DNA from: Candidatus Gastranaerophilales bacterium
GTDB lineage: Bacteria > Cyanobacteriota > Vampirovibrionia > Gastranaerophilales > Gastranaerophilaceae
Direction: 5' to 3'
Assembly: GCA_947589115.1 (NCBI GenBank)
Contig: CANPZP010000015.1
Coordinates: forward strand, 1-33,716
DNA: 33,716 bases
In this document: positions 24,207-33,716 of the stretch, in pieces
Layout of the letters: every line of letters begins with the position of its first letter
Numbering within the stretch: the stretch's first letter is position 1
Notes under the pieces: model-generated
Databases searched by the model: none
Seen by the model: the letters and a program-made list of their open reading frames with translations, nothing else
Told to the model about the DNA's origin: nothing
Made by a program: the position numbers and the translations under genes

Positions 24207-25250
24207 TTATTCTTTAACCAGAAAGGAATCATCTTCAACAATCATAGAGTAGTACGGTTTATCCTTTCCTGATTCCTTTAAGAAAAGTACAAATTTTTTA
24301 TCAAAGTCAAAATGTCTTGGAATTACGGGTTCAGGTGCTAATGAAGTCATTCTGATTCCAATGCCGGCTTCACTTTTTAAACTTCCGCCCTTATTATCCA
24401 TTTTAAATTTTATTGTCTGTACTGCCTGTGAGATATAATAATTTGTTCCTTTGATTACTTTATTGCATAATTCATTATATGTTACTGTTTTATCAACATT
24501 TATAAACGGAACTTTTAAAGTATCCTTTTTGTTAAATTTATCAAACTTTATATTTTCATTAACGTATGCGTATAGATTTTCAAATGAATCCATTTTATCA
24601 GTCCTGAACAATATAACATTTTCATTCTCTTTTGTATTTAAACTTATCGCATACTCATTTTCGTTATTGTAAAATAAAACTCTTACATTCTTTGATAATT
24701 CTTTTCTTTTGGAAGAATCATTTATTCCGAAATATTTTACTTTCCCTATTGAATTGAAAGCATCAGCTTCTAAAATATCAAATTGAGTCAAAAAATTAAA
24801 ATCTTTTTTTAACATTGAATAAAAGAAATAACCGTCTTTATTTGACCAATCGAAAATATCAAGAATATCGCTTTTTTCTTTAAATTTATTATAAATATCT
24901 TTTTCAATTTTATTTTTTAAGCTCTTTGACACTTTACCGTATGCCAAATAATAAGAATCAGGTGAGATATCATCTTTTGTATACAATTTTTTATTTAATT
25001 CATTAGCAAGTTCAGGTGTTCCGCCTTCAAACTCTATTTTATCCAGTTTAAAGAAATCAATACATTCGTTCCATACTAATTGAAATGTAATACACCATAT
25101 ATTATTAATATTTTCAGTCTGCTTTTGCATCGGTTTTACCGTTGATATAACAGGTTGTTTATTCTTGAACGGTCTAAATCCGGTATACATAACACAAGAA
25201 AATATCAAGCATAATACCATTAAAAAAATTGCAGTCTTATTTTTATTCAT
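24207..25250 (-). CDS. Secreted serpin-like protein
   Basis: A 347-residue exported protein. The signal sequence has Cys in LIFSCVMYTG, a possible but atypical lipobox. The body looks like a divergent bacterial serpin-like family. N-terminal helices (WCITFQLVWNECIDFF) and long alpha/beta segments (YFFYSMLKKDFNFLTQFD; KVKYFGINDSS) are followed by a C-terminal part, KGGSLKSEAGIGIRMTS, then a variable loop (LAPEPVIPRHF) and DKKFVLFLKES...PYYSMIVED. This follows the serpin hinge, reactive-loop and F-[IVL]-F-x-x order. The hinge lacks the small-residue run of inhibitory serpins, so protease inhibition is uncertain. AGGGAGA precedes the ATG. The gene is divergent from the glycan operon across the inverted-repeat segment, whose inversion would supply it with a promoter. 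Confidence 0.6.
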   Translation of the reverse strand: MNKNKTAIFLMVLCLIFSCVMYTGFRPFKNKQPVISTVKPMQKQTENINNIWCITFQLVWNECIDFFKLDKIEFEGGTPELANELNKKLYTKDDISPDSYYLAYGKVSKSLKNKIEKDIYNKFKEKSDILDIFDWSNKDGYFFYSMLKKDFNFLTQFDILEADAFNSIGKVKYFGINDSSKRKELSKNVRVLFYNNENEYAISLNTKENENVILFRTDKMDSFENLYAYVNENIKFDKFNKKDTLKVPFINVDKTVTYNELCNKVIKGTNYYISQAVQTIKFKMDNKGGSLKSEAGIGIRMTSLAPEPVIPRHFDFDKKFVLFLKESGKDKPYYSMIVEDDSFLVKE

Positions 25251-25312
25251 ATTTATCTCCCTGTTTATTTACCAGTATAACAGAAATAAATATTAAGTAT
25301 TAATTTTTATTT

Positions 25313-25491
25313 ACATATGCATCATAAATTTACTTTTGATGTATTATTTATAGAAATCAAGAGAATCAATTATTTCGATTATTACTAAATTATAAAAATT
25401 ACTAAATTAACAAATTTTGAATGTTCAATTTTTTTTGATATTATTAGAATGTAGTCTTTATACATCAAAAGTAAATTTATGGTGCATATGT
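25313..25491. repeat. 31-bp inverted repeat flanking a 117-bp promoter segment (candidate inverton)
   Basis: Left arm 25313-25343 and right arm 25461-25491 are reverse complements at 30 of 31 positions (mismatch at 25322/25482), enclosing 117 bp. Each arm contains a smaller CATCA...TGATG half-site pair around a 12-nt core (the right arm has CACCA), as in site-specific recombinase sites. The enclosed DNA carries a promoter pointing right. The right arm includes the start codon(s) of the glycan operon's first gene, which inversion would leave intact. Arms this long with a promoter between them are the layout of invertible promoters in surface-polysaccharide loci of gut bacteria. Confidence 0.75.
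25417..25444 (+). promoter_or_regulatory. Promoter inside the putative invertible segment
   Basis: TTGAAT (25417-25422), a 16-nt spacer and TATTAT (25439-25444) would start transcription near 25451, inside the segment and about 27 nt before the glycan operon's first start codon. The minus strand of the segment has only weaker -10-like sequences. In this assembly, therefore, the operon appears ON and the serpin-like gene without this promoter. Confidence 0.55.
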
Positions 25492-27572
25492 TTAAAAAGA
25501 ATAACAGTTACGGGGAAAATATTTATAATAGAAATTTTATCGTAACATTTATAATAATTCTAATAATAAAAATCATTATTATGGGATTATTTTCTTCGGA
25601 TTATCAAAATAAATTATTTATTCCGTTTGAAAATTTGTTTATAAATAATATACATAATCCTTGGCAGTATGTATATGAAAATAATATTCCGTCTGAATTT
25701 CCATATCACCCTGTAATGTTATATATTTTCAGCATTGGCGCTTTTTTAATTAAAGTATTTTCAATCCATAATGTGTTTTTATTAAATATACTTTTCAAAT
25801 TTCCGACACTATTAGCGGATTTGGGAATTTTTTATTTACTGCTAAAAATATTTAAAAATAAATCAATGTCAGTACTTTGGATTTATTTTTGTTCTCCTGT
25901 TATATTTTATGCTGCTTATATTCATTCTCAACTGGATTTAGTACCTGCGGCATTTCTATTTTTAGCATTTTACTACCTTAAAAAAGCAAAAATTTATCAG
26001 GCTTCCGTGATATATGCTCTGGCTTTAAGCATTAAAATGAATGTTATCTTATTATTACCCGTATTTTTAACGTACATTTATAAATGCTTCAAAAAAATAA
26101 ACATATTTTATTCGTTTATTATTATTGCATTAATATATTTCTCAATCTCTTATTCTTATATCTTTTCCGAAGGATATCAGAAAATGGTATTATTCAATGA
26201 AAAACAAAATTTATTGTTTAATTTAATTTTACCCTTAGGAAATATAAAAATATATATACCCGTTGCTCTGGGAATATTAATTTATTTAAGATTTTTTGCA
26301 TACAAGAAAATTAATACGGAACTTTTGGATTTATATTCCGTTTTAACAATATCACTGTTTTTATTATTTATACCCCCGTCTACTCCGGCATGGTTTATAT
26401 GGTTAATCCCGTTTTTAAGTTTATTTGTAATTAAATATTCAAACAAAAATAAAAATATATTATTAACATATTACCTGTTTAACACTGCTTATCTGATATA
26501 TTTTATATTCTTCCACGTAGGAGATTATAATGATATAACTTATTTAAACACTCCGATAAATACAAAGATTCAAAATGAATTTATAAGAAACTGCATATTT
26601 ACGGCGCTTGACGCAATACTTGCGGGAACAATATATTACATATACAAACTGGGAATTAAAAGCAATTTAATATACAAAAAAGATAAAGCCATTGTAATAG
26701 GTATAGGCGGAAACTCAGGAAGCGGAAAAACCACCTTATTAGAAAGTATTAAAACTCTATTAAAAGACGATTTGGTTATGCTAGAAGGAGATGGCGACCA
26801 TAAATGGGAAAGAGGAAATGAGCATTGGGTAAAATATACTCACCTTGACCCTAAAGCAAATTTTCTTCATCATCAATACAATGATATCTTAAAGCTTAAG
26901 AAGTTAGAATCAATATACAGAAAAGATTATAACCATGATTCCGGCAAATTTGAAGATGCAAAGAAAATAGAGCCGAAATCATTTATTATTATGTCAGGCT
27001 TGCATACTTTCTATCTCCCTAAAATGAGAAGATTAATTGATTTTAAAATATATTTAAATCCGGATGAAGAACTGCGTAAATACTGGAAAATAAAACGGGA
27101 TACCAAACTTAGAGGTTATTCAAAAGAAGAAGTACTGGCCCAAATGAACAAGCGAGAATCCGACAGCGAGAAATATATAAACAGCCAAAAAGAATTTGCA
27201 GACTTGATAATTTCTTATTTCCCCGTAAATAAAGAGGATTTAAATTCGGATAATATAGAGCACTTGGGGCTTAAACTTGAATTGGATTCAAGTATACACA
27301 CGGAAGACATAGTGGAAGATATTTCTAACTTAAATATACCGATTTCATGGGATTATTCAGATGATTTAAAAACACAGTATATAATAACTACTGATGATTT
27401 AACCTCTTGTAATTTTAATGAAATAATATCTCAGAAAATTGAAAATATTGATGAAATTCTTCCTAAAAACACTGTACTTAAAAACGGACAAGAAGGTTTC
27501 ATACAGCTTATTGTATTAAAAATACTAAGTGAAAAGATGAAGGATTCCTATGATAAAAGGTATTTTGATTGA
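25479..27572 (+). CDS. GT-C-type membrane glycosyltransferase fused to a uridine-kinase-like domain
   Basis: A 697-residue, two-part protein. Residues 1-395 hold about 10-11 membrane helices with the look of a GT-C mannosyltransferase-like protein: an early luminal segment with FPYHPVMLY, later YIHSQLDLVPAAFLF and SIKMNVILLLPVF, and IPPSTPAWFIWLIPFL. From residue 403 a P-loop kinase follows: GIGGNSGSGKTT (408-419), GDGDHKWERGNEHW, THLDPKANFLHHQ, SGLHTFYLPKMR and KRDTKLRGYS, matching uridine kinase / phosphoribulokinase enzymes. The fusion probably ties phosphorylation of a small substrate to glycan assembly at the membrane. Start 25479 (MVHM) or 25488 (ATG) both lie in the inverted repeat, and neither has a ribosome-binding site. 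It overlaps the next gene by 23 nt. Confidence 0.82.
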   Translation: MVHMFKKNNSYGENIYNRNFIVTFIIILIIKIIIMGLFSSDYQNKLFIPFENLFINNIHNPWQYVYENNIPSEFPYHPVMLYIFSIGAFLIKVFSIHNVFLLNILFKFPTLLADLGIFYLLLKIFKNKSMSVLWIYFCSPVIFYAAYIHSQLDLVPAAFLFLAFYYLKKAKIYQASVIYALALSIKMNVILLLPVFLTYIYKCFKKINIFYSFIIIALIYFSISYSYIFSEGYQKMVLFNEKQNLLFNLILPLGNIKIYIPVALGILIYLRFFAYKKINTELLDLYSVLTISLFLLFIPPSTPAWFIWLIPFLSLFVIKYSNKNKNILLTYYLFNTAYLIYFIFFHVGDYNDITYLNTPINTKIQNEFIRNCIFTALDAILAGTIYYIYKLGIKSNLIYKKDKAIVIGIGGNSGSGKTTLLESIKTLLKDDLVMLEGDGDHKWERGNEHWVKYTHLDPKANFLHHQYNDILKLKKLESIYRKDYNHDSGKFEDAKKIEPKSFIIMSGLHTFYLPKMRRLIDFKIYLNPDEELRKYWKIKRDTKLRGYSKEEVLAQMNKRESDSEKYINSQKEFADLIISYFPVNKEDLNSDNIEHLGLKLELDSSIHTEDIVEDISNLNIPISWDYSDDLKTQYIITTDDLTSCNFNEIISQKIENIDEILPKNTVLKNGQEGFIQLIVLKILSEKMKDSYDKRYFD

Positions 27573-28215
27573 TTTAGATAATACATTATACAGCTATGAA
27601 ACTGCACATAACAAAGCAATGGAGGCAGTGTATAATTATTTGTCCAAAGATTATTCCAAAGAAGAGATTGAAAAAAATTTTAACATCGCAAGAGAACAAA
27701 TCCATAACGAATTAAAGAATACTGCTTCATCTCATAACAGACTTTTATATTTTCAAAGAATGAATGAGTTATTAGGAAATGAAAATATACTTTGCGCAAA
27801 AGTTCTTTATAAAATTTATTGGAACAATTTTATAGACAATATGACTTTATATGACGGAGTCAGAGAATTTTTAAAGACCAATCAGGATAAAAAAATTTGT
27901 CTGGTAACGGATTTAACTGCATACATACAGTATAGAAAAATAGAAAAATTAAATTTGGACAAGTATATTAAATTTCTTGTTACAAGTGAAGAAGCCGGAG
28001 TAGAAAAGCCCGGGCGAAAAATTTTTGAACTTGCACTTAAAAAATTAAAACTTAATGCACACGAAGTTTGTATGATTGGAGATTCATACGAAAAAGACAT
28101 TAAAGGTGCAATAAACATGGGAATAAAACCAATTTATAAAACTAATAATAAAAATATAAAAGATGTAATAACATTTAATGATTTTAAAGAGCTTAGGGAA
28201 ATAATAAATGAATGA
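27550..28215 (+). CDS. HAD-family phosphatase
   Basis: A 221-residue haloacid-dehalogenase-type hydrolase with all four motifs: DLDNTLY (D8, D10), LVTDLTAY (Thr of motif II), Lys in GVEKPGRKIFELAL, and IGDSYEKDIKGA (motif IV Asp residues). The helical cap between residues 15 and 85 is of the C1 type. Members remove phosphate from small metabolites. In this operon it likely acts on a phosphorylated sugar or polyol made by the kinase and aldolase steps. AAGGA lies 6 nt before the ATG, inside the preceding gene's 3' end (23-nt overlap), and it overlaps the aldolase gene by 8 nt, so the three are translationally coupled. Confidence 0.88.
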   Translation: MIKGILIDLDNTLYSYETAHNKAMEAVYNYLSKDYSKEEIEKNFNIAREQIHNELKNTASSHNRLLYFQRMNELLGNENILCAKVLYKIYWNNFIDNMTLYDGVREFLKTNQDKKICLVTDLTAYIQYRKIEKLNLDKYIKFLVTSEEAGVEKPGRKIFELALKKLKLNAHEVCMIGDSYEKDIKGAINMGIKPIYKTNNKNIKDVITFNDFKELREIINE

Positions 28216-29281
28216 ATTAAATGATTTTATTGAAATATCAAAATATACGGGAGAAAGATACGATTTAATACAGGCAGGAGGCGGGAATACCTCATGTAAA
28301 ACCGATGACGGTAAAATGTACATTAAAGCCTCCGGTGTATATTTATCTGATGTATCGGAAAATCAAGGATATTCCGTTGTGGAATACAAAAAATTGTTAA
28401 ATATATTTGAAGAAAAAAATATTATTAGAGAAGGGAATAAAAAATTAAAAGACAAATTATCCTCTGAATATATAAATAAATATAATCTAACTCCCGCTTT
28501 AAGACCTTCAATAGAAACACTGCTCCATATTTTAATGAAGAAATATACAATTCATTCTCACCCTGTTGTTGTAAATTCAATAACACTACGTAAAGACTGG
28601 AAAGAAATCCTAAAAGAAATATTTAAAAATGACAAAATCGCTTTAGCGGAATATAAAACCCCCGGACTTGAACTAGCTTTAGAATTAAAGAAGATTATAA
28701 ATGATGATGATATTCCACAAATCATTTTCTTACAAAATCACGGATTAATCGTAACATCTGATAAAAAATCGGAAGTGATTGACTTAACGGAATATGCGGT
28801 AAATAAAATTGAAGAATACCTCAATATAGATATGAGTAAGTATAAAAATACAAATAAAATTTCACGCTGGGTTAATAACAATTATGAAAATATTACTTAT
28901 TTATCTCAAGATGAATATATAAATTCATTAAAACAAGATAAATTACTTTTAACAACATATCCTTTTTGTCCCGATAAAATGGTATATTGCGGAATAAAAA
29001 CAATTATATTGAAAGATAATCCCAAGAAGGAAATAGAAGAATATAAAGAAAAATATTTCGATATACCAAAAATTGCGGTATATGAAAACAACATTTATTT
29101 TATTGCAAAAAGTATAAAGAAAGCAAAAGAGATTGAAGATGTATTTAAGTTTCACTTAATGGCTTTAAATCTTGCGAAGGGAAAAGAAGTAAACTTTTTA
29201 ACCGAAGAGGAAATAAAATATATAGGAAACTGGGAAGCTGAAAAATACAGACAAAAATTGGGAGAGAAAATATGCAAATAA
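28208..29281 (+). CDS. Class II aldolase/adducin-type enzyme (rhamnulose-phosphate-aldolase-like half)
   Basis: A 357-residue protein. The N-terminal ~210 residues are a class II aldolase fold: AGGGNTSCKTDDGKMYIKAS (GGGNTS, residues 24-29), zinc ligands H116 and H118 in HSHPV and H178 in LQNHGL, and SIETLLH (E103) before them. The C-terminal ~130 residues (CPDKMVYCG..., FKFHLMALNLAKGKEVNFL, GNWEAEKYRQKL) match the extra part of the aldolase half of bifunctional rhamnulose-1-phosphate aldolase/dehydrogenase proteins. The short-chain dehydrogenase half is missing, and the protein ends where that half would begin. It should cleave or form a phosphorylated sugar, but substrate is unknown. It overlaps neighbours by 8 and 10 nt. 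Confidence 0.85.
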   Translation: MNELNDFIEISKYTGERYDLIQAGGGNTSCKTDDGKMYIKASGVYLSDVSENQGYSVVEYKKLLNIFEEKNIIREGNKKLKDKLSSEYINKYNLTPALRPSIETLLHILMKKYTIHSHPVVVNSITLRKDWKEILKEIFKNDKIALAEYKTPGLELALELKKIINDDDIPQIIFLQNHGLIVTSDKKSEVIDLTEYAVNKIEEYLNIDMSKYKNTNKISRWVNNNYENITYLSQDEYINSLKQDKLLLTTYPFCPDKMVYCGIKTIILKDNPKKEIEEYKEKYFDIPKIAVYENNIYFIAKSIKKAKEIEDVFKFHLMALNLAKGKEVNFLTEEEIKYIGNWEAEKYRQKLGEKICK

Positions 29282-30909
29282 TTATACCGATGACAGGTGT
29301 CGGACAAAGATTTATTGATGCAGGCTATAAAACAATAAAACCCTTAATTGAAGTTGACGGGAAACCCATTATTGAACATGTCGTAAATTTATTCCCCGAT
29401 GAAGATAATTTTATATTTATATGCAATTCAAAACATCTTAAAGAAACAAATTTAAGAGAAGTATTAAAAAGAATAGCGCCGAAAGGAAGAATTGCGGAAA
29501 TCCCCCCTCACAAAAAAGGGCCGGTTTATGCCGTTTATCAAATAAAAGATTTAATAGATGATAAAGATGAAGTCATAGTTAATTATTGTGATTTCGGAAC
29601 ATATTGGGATTATAAAGACTTTTTATCTCATACCCGAAACCGTAAAGCAGAAGGCAGTATACCCGCATATAAAGGTTTTCACCCGCATATGTTAGGGAAA
29701 ATAAATTATGCCTTTATGAGAGATGACAAACAATGGATGCTTGAAATCAGAGAAAAAGAACCATTTACCTCTAACAGAATGAATGAATATGCATCAAACG
29801 GTACATACTATTTTAAGTCAGGAGCATTGGTAAAAAAATATTTTAAAGAATTAATGGATAAAGACATTAATTTAAAAGGTGAGTACTATGTAAGTATGGT
29901 ATATAACCTGTTGGTAAACGCAGGATTAAAGGTTTCAATATACGAAATTCAGCATATGCAGCAGTGGGGAACCCCCGGTGAACTTGAAGAATATAAAGGC
30001 TGGTCTGAATATTTCAAATCCTTATCAAACTTTAAAAAAGAATCCAAAGTATATGATGCCATAAAGCTAATACCCTTAGCAGGAAGAGGACAAAGATTTC
30101 TGGATGAAGGCTATAAAAATCCTAAGCCCTTAATTGAGGTTAGTACAAGACCTATGATTATTCAAGCTTCAAACGCTCTTCCAAATTGCAGTCAAAATAT
30201 TTTTGTATGTTTAAAAGAACATCTTGACAAATATCCTTTGTCGCAAGAATTAAAAAAGGAATACCCTGATGCAAAAATAGTATCTTTAAATGAAGTAACA
30301 CAAGGACAAGCTTGTACATGCGAGATAGGACTTAAAGATACAGATTTAGATAAGCCCCTATTCATAGGCGCTTGCGACAATTCAATGATTATTAATTATA
30401 AAAAATTAGACGAAGAAATTAAAAAATCAGACGTTCTGGCTTTTTCATTCCGTAATAATATTGCAAGTGAAAAGAATCCCAAGGCATACGGCTGGATTAA
30501 AATCGATAATGACAATAATGTAAAGGGAGTAAGCGTTAAAATCCCGATATCCGACAATCCGAGGAATGATCATGCAATTGTAGGAGCATTTTATTTCAGA
30601 ACGGCAAGAATCTTTTTAGACTGTCTTAAATACCTTTACGATAATGACATAAGAGTTAACGGAGAGTTTTATGTTGACAGTTGTGTTGACAGCGCCGTTA
30701 AACTTAACTATAAAACACGAGTATTTGAAGTTGATAAATATATTTGCTGGGGAACACCCAATGACTACAGAACTTTTACGGCATACCAAAGTTTATTCCA
30801 TAAACTGAAGTATCATCCTTATTCTCTTGAAAAAGACCCAAATACGGATAAATCAAAAATTTCAGAACTTGATAATCAATTCAGAAATTTTAAACAGGAA
30901 TATGTATAA
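29272..30909 (+). CDS. Tandem nucleotidyltransferase (two NTP-transferase domains)
   Basis: A 545-residue protein made of two homologous sugar-nucleotidyltransferase domains: 1-245 with MTGVGQRFIDAGYKTIKPLI, and 262-545 with LAGRGQRFLDEGYKNPKPLI. Both keep the G-x-G-x-R-F nucleotide loop, the Lys-Pro-Leu-Ile-Glu-Val strand and a metal-binding Asp (D107 in NYCDFG, D369 in GACDNS). Both end with a C-W/Q-W-G-T-P-x-[ED] element (MQQWGTPGELEEY; ICWGTPNDYRTF). Such enzymes join a sugar phosphate to a nucleotide. Two intact active sites in one chain could activate two substrates, or one could bind without catalysis. Given the kinase, aldolase and phosphatase next door, it likely makes the NDP-activated precursor of the operon's glycan. 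It overlaps the aldolase gene by 10 nt. Confidence 0.87.
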   Translation: MQIIIPMTGVGQRFIDAGYKTIKPLIEVDGKPIIEHVVNLFPDEDNFIFICNSKHLKETNLREVLKRIAPKGRIAEIPPHKKGPVYAVYQIKDLIDDKDEVIVNYCDFGTYWDYKDFLSHTRNRKAEGSIPAYKGFHPHMLGKINYAFMRDDKQWMLEIREKEPFTSNRMNEYASNGTYYFKSGALVKKYFKELMDKDINLKGEYYVSMVYNLLVNAGLKVSIYEIQHMQQWGTPGELEEYKGWSEYFKSLSNFKKESKVYDAIKLIPLAGRGQRFLDEGYKNPKPLIEVSTRPMIIQASNALPNCSQNIFVCLKEHLDKYPLSQELKKEYPDAKIVSLNEVTQGQACTCEIGLKDTDLDKPLFIGACDNSMIINYKKLDEEIKKSDVLAFSFRNNIASEKNPKAYGWIKIDNDNNVKGVSVKIPISDNPRNDHAIVGAFYFRTARIFLDCLKYLYDNDIRVNGEFYVDSCVDSAVKLNYKTRVFEVDKYICWGTPNDYRTFTAYQSLFHKLKYHPYSLEKDPNTDKSKISELDNQFRNFKQEYV

Positions 30910-30927
30910 ATTAAAATTGAAGGTAAT

Positions 30928-31347
30928 ATGAATAATACAAAAAAAGAGATATCAAGATTTATAATTTCAGGAATATGCGCAGTATTAACAGATATGCTGT
31001 TTTATTATATCCTATCTAATTTTATTGAAATATCAGTTGCAAAAGGGATTTCATTCCTATTAGGAACAATCACGGCGTATTTAATGAATAAATATTATAC
31101 TTTTGAAAAGAAAGAAAAGAGTTTAAAAGAGGTTATTAAATTTTTAAGTTTATACCTGTTTTCTCTTTGTGCAAATATTATTGTTAATAAGCTTTCATTA
31201 TATATACTTCCGTTTGTTTTTATTAATGAATATAAAATTATAAAATTTTTGTCATTTCTGTTTGCCACGGGAACAAGCACAATTATTAACTTTACGGGAC
31301 AAAAATTTTGGGTATTTAAGAGAGATAAAGGAAAATTAAATGACTGA
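30928..31347 (+). CDS. GtrA-like membrane protein
   Basis: A 139-residue protein with four predicted membrane helices (about 8-28, 35-55, 70-92 and 105-127). It carries the GtrA signature: an N-terminal RFIISGICAVLTDMLFYYIL, the NKYYTFEKKEKS loop after helix 2, and NFTGQKFWVFKRDK at the C-terminus. GtrA proteins are thought to help move undecaprenyl-linked sugars across the membrane for attachment to cell-surface glycan. AAGGT lies a few nt before the ATG. It starts 18 nt after the nucleotidyltransferase gene and overlaps the next gene by 8 nt. Together with the terminal GT2 enzyme it forms a GtrA/GtrB-like pair. Confidence 0.9.
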   Translation: MNNTKKEISRFIISGICAVLTDMLFYYILSNFIEISVAKGISFLLGTITAYLMNKYYTFEKKEKSLKEVIKFLSLYLFSLCANIIVNKLSLYILPFVFINEYKIIKFLSFLFATGTSTIINFTGQKFWVFKRDKGKLND

Positions 31348-33031
31348 ACAAAAAGGCAAAATTACAACTTACATTATAACTTTTGTAATGATAATAATTA
31401 CACTGTTAACCTTTAATATATATAAAAATAACTCATTGGCAGGAGATTTGAATAATCATATTCTTGCTTCCGATAATTACCCCATGCCGGAGGAAATAGA
31501 AAAAAGAGGAATACAACCTTATTTCACTTTAAAACAATCAACGGGATGGGACGGACAGTTTCATTATTATATAGCAAATGACGTTTTTGCGCTGAAAGAT
31601 ACAAAAGACAAAATGGGCGAAGATAATGCTTCGTATAGATACAGCAGGGTCGGCTTCAGTCTTTTTACAAATATTCTTTCTAAAATTACATTTAGAGATT
31701 GGGTTAGTCCTTTATTTTATCTTTGTACTTACTTGCTTTTATTTTTTGCAGCCGTTTTTACCTTCTCAAATATAGTTATAAAACGAAATAAATCCGTATA
31801 TTTATCCTTAATATGGATATTATTTGCCGGCAATATGCTTACAATGTTTAATGCGCTGACCGATTGTGCATCAGACTGCTTTTTTATACTTTCTCTTCCG
31901 TTTTTATTTTCCTTTTGTGAAAACTCTTCAAAACATAAATATGTAAACGGTATCTTATTTATTCTGTTTGCTTCATTTGCCGCTTTATCACGTGAAGTAT
32001 ATTGTCTTTTTATTTTTGCATTATGGATTAGCGCTGTTTATGAAACAATTAAAAACAAAAAAACCAAATGGGGGGGGGTAGAAACAATTATCATTGCTTC
32101 CGTTCCCGCTATTATTTATATTTTATGGAAAATTTATGTGTACATTCATATAGGAAGTTCGGAATATAACGGTATCGGCGGATATCCGTTTGTTTCAATT
32201 ATAAAATATATGTTTAACGGCTATGACAAGATTAATTCATACCTTATTCCTTTATTCTTACTGGTATTATTATCATCTGTATATATAGGGGTAATCAGAT
32301 TAAAGGAAAATAAAGATATCATAACAAATACATTTGCACTCTCTCTCATTTTTATTCCGATTTTATATGTATGTCTTGGAGATGTTGTAATGTTTAACTG
32401 GACAGGATATATAAAAGTGTTAGGTTCTTTGTACATTCTGATTGCTTTATCAATTAATTTAAAAAATAAGCCTGAAAAAGCAATTTTAATTATAATAATA
32501 ATTTCTTTACTATGTACAACATACATTTACATAAAAAATAAAGTTAGTATCTTTTATATGTCTGACAGGTATTTTCAGATGATGAATTATGATTATAAAG
32601 ATGAAATTGAAAAAGAAAAAACTGAAATTAATTGTTTTAATAATTACGAATACGAAAGTAAAATACTTGATTATGAATTAAAAAAAGTAGGCAGCAAAGA
32701 TATTCTTATTGTGCATGCGCTAATAAAGAATAAAACACCCTACATATGGAAAAGCACAAATGAAAAAGGCGGAGTGATAATATCGGGTTTTTGGTTAATT
32801 GGCAATAATCAAGTAAGAAACGGATTGGAAACATATATTTACCCCGAAATGAAACCAAATGAAGAAAGAGAGTTTTATATTTTTTCAAAATTACCCAATA
32901 AAAAACATCTTAAAAATAATGAGTTAAAATATGTAATTACTCCCGTTCAAAATCAATGCGCACAAATGTATAAAGAGAAAAATACAGAAGTACAAACAAT
33001 AGAATATAAAGATATTATGGAGAACAAATAA
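31340..33031 (+). CDS. Polytopic membrane protein, GT-C/glycopolymer-formation type, with a G9 tract
   Basis: A 563-residue protein with an N-terminal membrane helix, the luminal motif GWDGQFHYYIANDVF (residues 69-83) followed by YRYSRVGFS, and about nine more helices. This arrangement is seen in the membrane proteins associated with cell-surface glycopolymer formation and in GT-C transferases. The C-terminal ~150 residues (from about 410) are soluble and strand-rich (LDYELKKVGSKDILIVHALI, WKSTNEKGGVIISGFWLIGN), perhaps an extracytoplasmic glycan-binding domain. Codons 244-247 (W-G-G-V) contain nine G. Losing one gives an immediate TAG, and gaining one gives a stop about 30 codons on. It overlaps gtrA by 8 nt and the GT2 gene by 1 nt (TAATG). 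Donor and acceptor unknown. Confidence 0.82.
   Translation: MTEQKGKITTYIITFVMIIITLLTFNIYKNNSLAGDLNNHILASDNYPMPEEIEKRGIQPYFTLKQSTGWDGQFHYYIANDVFALKDTKDKMGEDNASYRYSRVGFSLFTNILSKITFRDWVSPLFYLCTYLLLFFAAVFTFSNIVIKRNKSVYLSLIWILFAGNMLTMFNALTDCASDCFFILSLPFLFSFCENSSKHKYVNGILFILFASFAALSREVYCLFIFALWISAVYETIKNKKTKWGGVETIIIASVPAIIYILWKIYVYIHIGSSEYNGIGGYPFVSIIKYMFNGYDKINSYLIPLFLLVLLSSVYIGVIRLKENKDIITNTFALSLIFIPILYVCLGDVVMFNWTGYIKVLGSLYILIALSINLKNKPEKAILIIIIISLLCTTYIYIKNKVSIFYMSDRYFQMMNYDYKDEIEKEKTEINCFNNYEYESKILDYELKKVGSKDILIVHALIKNKTPYIWKSTNEKGGVIISGFWLIGNNQVRNGLETYIYPEMKPNEEREFYIFSKLPNKKHLKNNELKYVITPVQNQCAQMYKEKNTEVQTIEYKDIMENK
32070..32078 (+). repeat. G9 homopolymer inside the glycan-operon membrane protein
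   Basis: Nine G in the context ATGGGGGGGGGTA, the same 13-mer as in the prepilin leader at 881-893 (minus strand). It lies in a loop between membrane helices (residues 244-247). It is a candidate slipped-strand switch, in the ON register here. Confidence 0.7.
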
Positions 33032-33716
33032 TGGACGATATAAAATATTCAATAATCATACCCTGTTTTAACGAAAGTGAAAACATACCTTTAATAATTA
33101 ACAGATTTAAAGAAGTAATAAAAAGAGATGATATAGAAATAATACTTGTAGATAACGGTTCAACCGATAATACACAAGAAGTAATAAAATCCATAATAAA
33201 TGAAAATAAATTTTTAAAAACCGTAAAGGTTGAAACAAATCAAGGATACGGTTTTGGTATATTATCAGGCTTAAAAGAAGCAAAAGGAGAATTTCTGGGC
33301 TGGACTCATGCCGATATGCAAACAGATCCTCAAGATGTTATCAAAGCCATAGATATAGCAGAAAAAGAAACTACGGATAATATATATGTAAAAGGCTCAA
33401 GAAAAAACAGACCGTTTTTTGATGTATTTTTTACTTTCGGAATGGGATGTTTTGAAACATTACTTATGGGACAATTTTTATGGGATATAAATGCGCAGCC
33501 AAACTTATTTCCCAAAAAGCTGTTTGAAAATTGGGAAAATCCGCCGTATGATTTTGCGCTTGATTTATTTGCACTCTATAAAGCAAAAAAACAAGGATAT
33601 AAGGTTATAAGATTTCCCGTAATATTTCCGGATAGAATCCATGGTGAATCTCATTGGAATACGGGAATCGGCGGTAAAATTAAATTTATTAAAAGAACTA
33701 TTGATTTCAGTTTTAA
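33031..33716 (+). CDS. GT2-family glycosyltransferase (GtrB/DPM1-like), 3' end cut by the window
   Basis: The first 228 codons of an open frame beginning MDDIKYSIIIPCFNESENIP. It has the GT-A features of family 2: IIIPCFNESENI, the EIILVDNGSTDNTQE nucleotide-binding strand, NQGYGFGILSGLKEAKGEF, and WTHADMQTDP (the DXD-like metal site, here HAD). HGESHWNTG (about residues 214-222) corresponds to the acceptor-end motif of polyprenyl-phosphate sugar transferases. It likely loads a sugar onto undecaprenyl phosphate for GtrA to flip. The ATG overlaps the preceding stop (TAATG). The window ends before any stop codon, so C-terminal membrane helices typical of GtrB, if present, are not visible. Confidence 0.87.
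   Translation, partial: MDDIKYSIIIPCFNESENIPLIINRFKEVIKRDDIEIILVDNGSTDNTQEVIKSIINENKFLKTVKVETNQGYGFGILSGLKEAKGEFLGWTHADMQTDPQDVIKAIDIAEKETTDNIYVKGSRKNRPFFDVFFTFGMGCFETLLMGQFLWDINAQPNLFPKKLFENWENPPYDFALDLFALYKAKKQGYKVIRFPVIFPDRIHGESHWNTGIGGKIKFIKRTIDFSF

Follow-up and report, generated by a model that had tools for sequence, protein, structure and literature searches.

A 115 bp segment lying between two short inverted repeats in a Gastranaerophilales genome is very probably a recombinase-driven invertible promoter, which would switch the surface-glycan operon to its right ON and OFF and which was assembled in the ON orientation. The Gastranaerophilales/Melainabacteria are gut relatives of cyanobacteria. 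The window, i.e. the whole stretch of DNA analysed, corresponds to the entire contig C15, 33,716 bp long, from a genome of 1.82 Mb with 96% completeness. A previous sequence-only reading had proposed that the segment is an inverton, and this is well supported, as elements of the same dyad architecture lie beside recombinase genes and members of the same subclass have opposite orientations in relatives. With one genome per species, no flipped copy of the window segment was seen; both states were seen only in relatives of the element, and inversion of the window segment itself is inferred.

The two arms are 32 nt each and are complementary at 31 positions (Table 1). Outward of the arms, the two sides stay similar (84%) as far as 51 nt. 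With a score of 29, the repeat exceeds all of 100 dinucleotide-shuffled versions of the window, the best of which reached 19, hence the near-perfect short inverted repeats of an inverton are present beyond chance. The 31-bp arms, matching at 30 of 31 positions around a 117 bp spacer, that were described earlier are the same repeat taken one base shorter. Each arm includes a dyad resembling a recombinase site, in which a 5-nt half-site and its reversed counterpart flank a 12-nt core. The pattern CATCA..TGATG, which had been reported for the arm, holds in the left arm but not in the right, where one half-site is CACCA, giving three copies of CATCA and one of CACCA. The only mismatch between the arms (25322/25482) is in the outer half-site. 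Strands are expected to be exchanged within the 12-nt core, which does not include this position, so the mismatched bases should stay in place, and the change of Val2 to Met that had been predicted to accompany inversion is not expected. When the genome was searched for the arm sequence allowing up to 3 mismatches, two occurrences were found, both at the window locus, and there was no third copy.

The rightward promoter TTGAAT-16-TATTAT that had been placed within the segment is present as a sequence match, from which a promoter function is predicted. Its quality is ordinary for AT-rich DNA, where such matches are common, with 10 sites as good as this one found versus 6.5 expected.

Table 1. 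Features of the window locus and positions of the three CAYCA elements. Positions with no contig prefix refer to the window.
Feature	Position	Strand	Details
Left arm	25313..25344	+	Recombinase-site-like dyad CATCA-TAAATTTACTTT-TGATG at 25320-25341
Right arm	25460..25491	-	Dyad CACCA-TAAATTTACTTT-TGATG (- strand reading) at 25463-25484
Inner, predicted invertible segment	25345..25459	no strand	115 bp; 22-bp dyad sites 121 bp apart
Promoter-like site TTGAAT-16-TATTAT, extended -10 (TGATATTAT, TG at 25436)	25417..25444	+	Consensus match only; directed at right-hand operon
First gene of right-hand operon	25479..27572	+	697 aa from ATG 25479; N-terminal membrane region and PRK/uridine-kinase domain
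Rest of predicted surface-glycan operon	27550..33716	+	HAD phosphatase, class II aldolase-like, double nucleotidyltransferase, GtrA, membrane glycosyltransferase-like, GT2
Divergent gene	24207..25250	-	347 aa; signal-anchor N terminus; no recognised family
Own promoter-like site of divergent gene, TTAATA-18-TATACT with TG extension	25274..25303	-	Outside repeat
Window element	C15:25313-25491		Gap 121 bp; before glycan operon, promoter directed into operon (predicted ON as assembled)
C1 element	C1:58915-59079		Gap 121 bp; before AlgX/AlgI (MBOAT) O-acetylation operon, extended -10 facing away (predicted OFF)
C30 element	C30:17075-17240		Gap 122 bp; before adhesin-like gene, TTGACA-17-TAAAAT promoter-like site facing away (predicted OFF)

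The right-hand operon is composed of seven genes on the + strand, from 25479 onward. For the first gene, ATG 25488 is the likelier start because two relatives begin with Met-Phe ('MF...') at the matching point, and the true start may thus fall just outside the dyad. The product of 25479-27572 has a membrane glycosyltransferase-like region fused to a PRK/uridine-kinase domain (residues 406-585), and its final ~105 residues (593-697) are encoded by a separate reading frame in G035 and G027. No orthologous repeat was found at the relatives of the operon in G035, G027 and G031 (65%, 65% and 55% identity, respectively), where the upstream genes differ, and a DNA search of 41 genomes of the genus with the 321-bp region returned short AT-rich matches only. 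The product of the divergent gene had been called serpin-like, but Pfam and PDB sequence searches lend this no support, and its predicted fold (mean pLDDT 36) is too poor to be used for the question. Besides its own promoter-like site, the divergent gene has an AGGGAG ribosome site upstream of its ATG, also outside the repeat.

The window element belongs to a class, defined by CAYCA-N12-TGRTG sites arranged as inverted pairs about 121-122 bp apart. With a pattern search across the family and a looser one on the whole genome, exactly three CAYCA elements were found here, and none with the reversed control. The three have the dyad sites and the spacing in common but not the inner sequence, and one of them (window) is predicted to be ON and two (C1 and C30) OFF as assembled. 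The gene downstream of the C30 element (G000:C30, L272:8262-11261) encodes a large adhesin-like protein, 1,000 aa or longer and rich in NNG-type repeats. In relatives, the gap between sites is 121 or 122 in L117, L120, L121, L122 and G193, and 109 in G215, while in G067, a genome of another genus in the same family, it is 121 in 12 of the 13 copies read and 120 in the other. A survey of AlgX homologues in 20 genomes found the repeat only at the C1 locus of this genome and in G008.

The earlier reading envisaged a strict either/or switch, with the promoter serving the right-hand operon or, once flipped, the divergent gene. The two genes are indeed divergent with no terminator-like site in 25200-25700, and a flipped promoter could read into 24207-25250. 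However, the divergent gene has an extended -10 promoter-like site and a ribosome site of its own outside the repeat, so that ON/OFF control of the operon is the simpler switch, and the C1 and C30 elements each precede a single surface gene or operon, facing away. An either/or arrangement is therefore considered unlikely, and ON/OFF switching of the glycan operon is preferred.

A search of the genome for tyrosine and serine recombinase genes identified eight matches to PF00589, five of which are short proteins of 180-187 aa, as well as two serine recombinases. None of the five short tyrosine-type or two serine recombinase genes adjoins the element, and the 33.7-kb window contig contains no recombinase gene. 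The catalytic R-K-H-R-H-Y positions are invariant in all five short recombinases. Four of the five adjoin an inverted pair with an NNNCA-N12-TGNNN dyad, the same design as in the window arm, and the half-sites at these are ATACA, CAACA, TTACA and TAACA (each a 5-nt half-site, 12-nt core and reversed half-site). Inverted pairs of this 5-12-5 kind were absent from the stretches read around the two serine recombinases. The fifth short recombinase (C41:10920-11480, 187 aa), here the C41 enzyme, likewise has no such pair beside its gene; its PF00589 match (E 1.7e-30) and R-K-H-R-H-Y residues identify it as a tyrosine recombinase. In one of the four cases with an adjoining pair, on C23, the 180-aa tyrosine recombinase is encoded within a 598-bp perfect inverted pair of its own, surrounded by glycosyltransferase genes (G000:C23, L076:4417-5066), and similar self-inverting designs are present in G029, G027, G011, G001 and G015.

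The association of such sites with recombinases was examined in the surroundings of 57 relatives in the genus, using the rule that NNNCA-N12-TGNNN sites form inverted pairs with no more than 4 mismatches in 22. The 359 kb of recombinase neighbourhoods contained twenty pairs and the 284 kb from control loci none; the window pair satisfies the rule with one mismatch. In 825 kb of its own genome, made up of the window and 40 stretches picked regardless of the recombinases, the window pair alone passes at 4 mismatches, and the second to appear, at 5, is the C1 element. Of 24 inner segments, 16 have an extended -10 where shuffles predict roughly 9, so that the enrichment is weak.

In a maximum-likelihood tree of 63 recombinase sequences, an enzyme's place goes with the type of its half-sites. 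One clade (98/95) unites the three ATACA loci, and L117, L120 and L121, the three at which CACCA sites are found beside a recombinase, all belong to the C41-type clade (one change, 94% of bootstrap trees). The C41 enzyme is the sole member of this clade in the genome. Because it is the only one there from the clade tied to CACCA sites, it is the best candidate and the most likely enzyme for the window element, on which it would act in trans. The 121-bp gap of the window pair also agrees with the subclass tied to this clade. This assignment draws on half-site resemblance, the C41 gene being on another contig. CATCA is also one base from CAACA, the half-site of a C23 recombinase; the third base is A in all class-A sites and is never A in the window half-sites.

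A locus that once inverted could have become fixed, leaving a constitutive operon promoter with no adjacent recombinase. Such a fossil or locked inverton would be consistent with a 33.7-kb contig that lacks a recombinase gene, and decay is seen in relatives, where L117 and L120 each have one decayed arm. However, the arms of the window remain almost perfect and preserve the dyad's core and inner half-sites, the spacing is the class value, and the genome retains a recombinase of the matching type with its catalytic residues. This makes a locked state distinctly improbable, and a promoter that can still invert is the favoured reading.

Relatives contain CAYCA elements in either orientation. Two paralogous loci of G008 each comprise an AlgX/AlgI operon and a C41-type recombinase, and their flanks are collinear, aligning at 70-79%. 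The inner segments of the two align only when one is reversed, scoring 22 compared with 3 in the same orientation (shuffles 7.2 +/- 2.2, maximum 16), and the promoter points toward the operon at one paralogue and away from it at the other. G067 has one C41-type recombinase (64% identity) and ~98 copies of a 164-165-bp CACCA-class element, for example at L261:5999-6162 and L264:13054-13218. At the promoter end, 97 of 98 junctions have the distal-type arm (OFF) and one has the gene-side arm (ON). Where complete, the elements at the 30 loci read have a gene with a prepilin motif (type-IV-pilin-like) on the far side of the promoter (OFF). The single ON-type junction, at C1:9690 of G067, drives into a 248-aa prepilin-like protein and is near a contig end where mis-assembly is possible, and at L304, a contig start, a pilin-like gene lies beyond the distal arm and the orientation is ambiguous. 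Orthologous class-A invertons of sister species (L151/L152 and L160/L161) are in the same orientation, which speaks neither for nor against inversion.

A separate pilin locus in the source genome (G000:C5, L187:10722-11930) has a 243-bp perfect inverted repeat, the copies 723 bp apart, formed by two divergent prepilin-like genes that have identical 5' parts. It is a possible site of homologous inversion or of pilin gene exchange.

The orientation data also bear on whether the repeat could be static, serving without any inversion of the DNA as a regulator's binding site in the form of two inverted operators or a long-range hairpin. The dyad within each arm would equally suit a dimeric repressor, and the arms are restricted to the window locus at up to 3 mismatches. 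However, like dyad pairs cluster beside tyrosine recombinases (20 vs 0), their half-site type goes with the clade of the recombinase, and paralogous loci carry their inner segments in opposite directions, leaving a static role very unlikely. The least credible explanation is a MITE that landed between two genes, as the ~180 bp size, near-perfect terminal repeats and absence at the operon in relatives would fit one, and element spread may have occurred among the ~98 copies in G067, but the window element is a single copy in its genome (up to 3 mismatches) and not multi-copy, the three related elements share dyad and spacing with differing inner sequence, and the arms match recombinase sites whose enzymes retain an intact tyrosine-recombinase domain.

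The preferred invertible promoter would work through a small tyrosine recombinase with a single domain, which would occupy all four CAYCA half-sites and exchange strands within the 12-nt cores of both arms, flipping the 120-bp segment between them. Binding of protomers and strand exchange in the core, as for fimS, are general features of tyrosine recombinases. In the flipped state, the extended -10 promoter would face the divergent gene and point away from the operon, and the divergent gene, with its own promoter-like site, should stay on. The C41 recombinase would act in trans on the window element and on the two other orphan elements, C1 and C30. On balance it is probable that this forms part of an inversion regulon in Gastranaerophilales, in which tyrosine recombinases of 180-190 aa, forming an orphan clade, act in trans on scattered CAYCA-N12-TGRTG promoters with a nearly constant gap of 121-122 bp to switch glycan, O-acetylation, adhesin and pilin-like genes, and which in G067 would have grown to ~98 flippable, pilin-linked promoters, almost all OFF.

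The proposed arrangement would resemble fimS and FimB/FimE of Escherichia coli type 1 fimbriae, in which a single-domain tyrosine recombinase of ~200 aa flips a promoter lying between short inverted repeats and the target is a surface structure. However, the FimB/E genes adjoin fimS whereas the window element has no adjoining recombinase, and the fimS repeats differ from those of the window in sequence and length. The short recombinases match the FimB/E-type models only at scores far below the cut-offs, and the C41 enzyme, with 60.3 bits for PRK09871 (cut-off 222) and 59.5 bits for PRK09870 (cut-off 221), is not placed among the FimB/FimE-type DNA invertases. Mpi of Bacteroides fragilis is reportedly a global invertase that acts at many surface-polysaccharide promoters. 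Mpi is a serine recombinase, whereas the system proposed here is tyrosine-type with CAYCA-N12-TGRTG sites. In the Vpma system of Mycoplasma agalactiae, one promoter is moved among clustered genes. Vpma switching among a family of surface-protein genes is, as proposed here, by a tyrosine recombinase (PMC2268961). It differs from G067, where each dispersed pilin-like gene appears to own a flippable promoter. In Clostridioides difficile, several switches that are not linked to one another are flipped in trans by the tyrosine recombinase RecV (PMC8844915, PMC7241687), whose regulon resembles this system if one enzyme serves the three unlinked elements. However, RecV belongs to another phylum with a different site sequence and different targets, and the gap here is almost fixed at 121-122 bp.

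In the literature searched, which included few subscription papers, no report was found of phase variation or invertible promoters in Gastranaerophilales/Melainabacteria, and prior detection by the survey of Jiang et al. (2019) is possible. If the proposed switch is correct, these gut bacteria switch their surface coat through promoter inversion, and the pilin-linked elements of G067 would represent an exceptionally large array of flippable promoters controlled by a single recombinase. The site rule, together with the match between recombinase clade and half-site, lets such switches be found from sequence alone.
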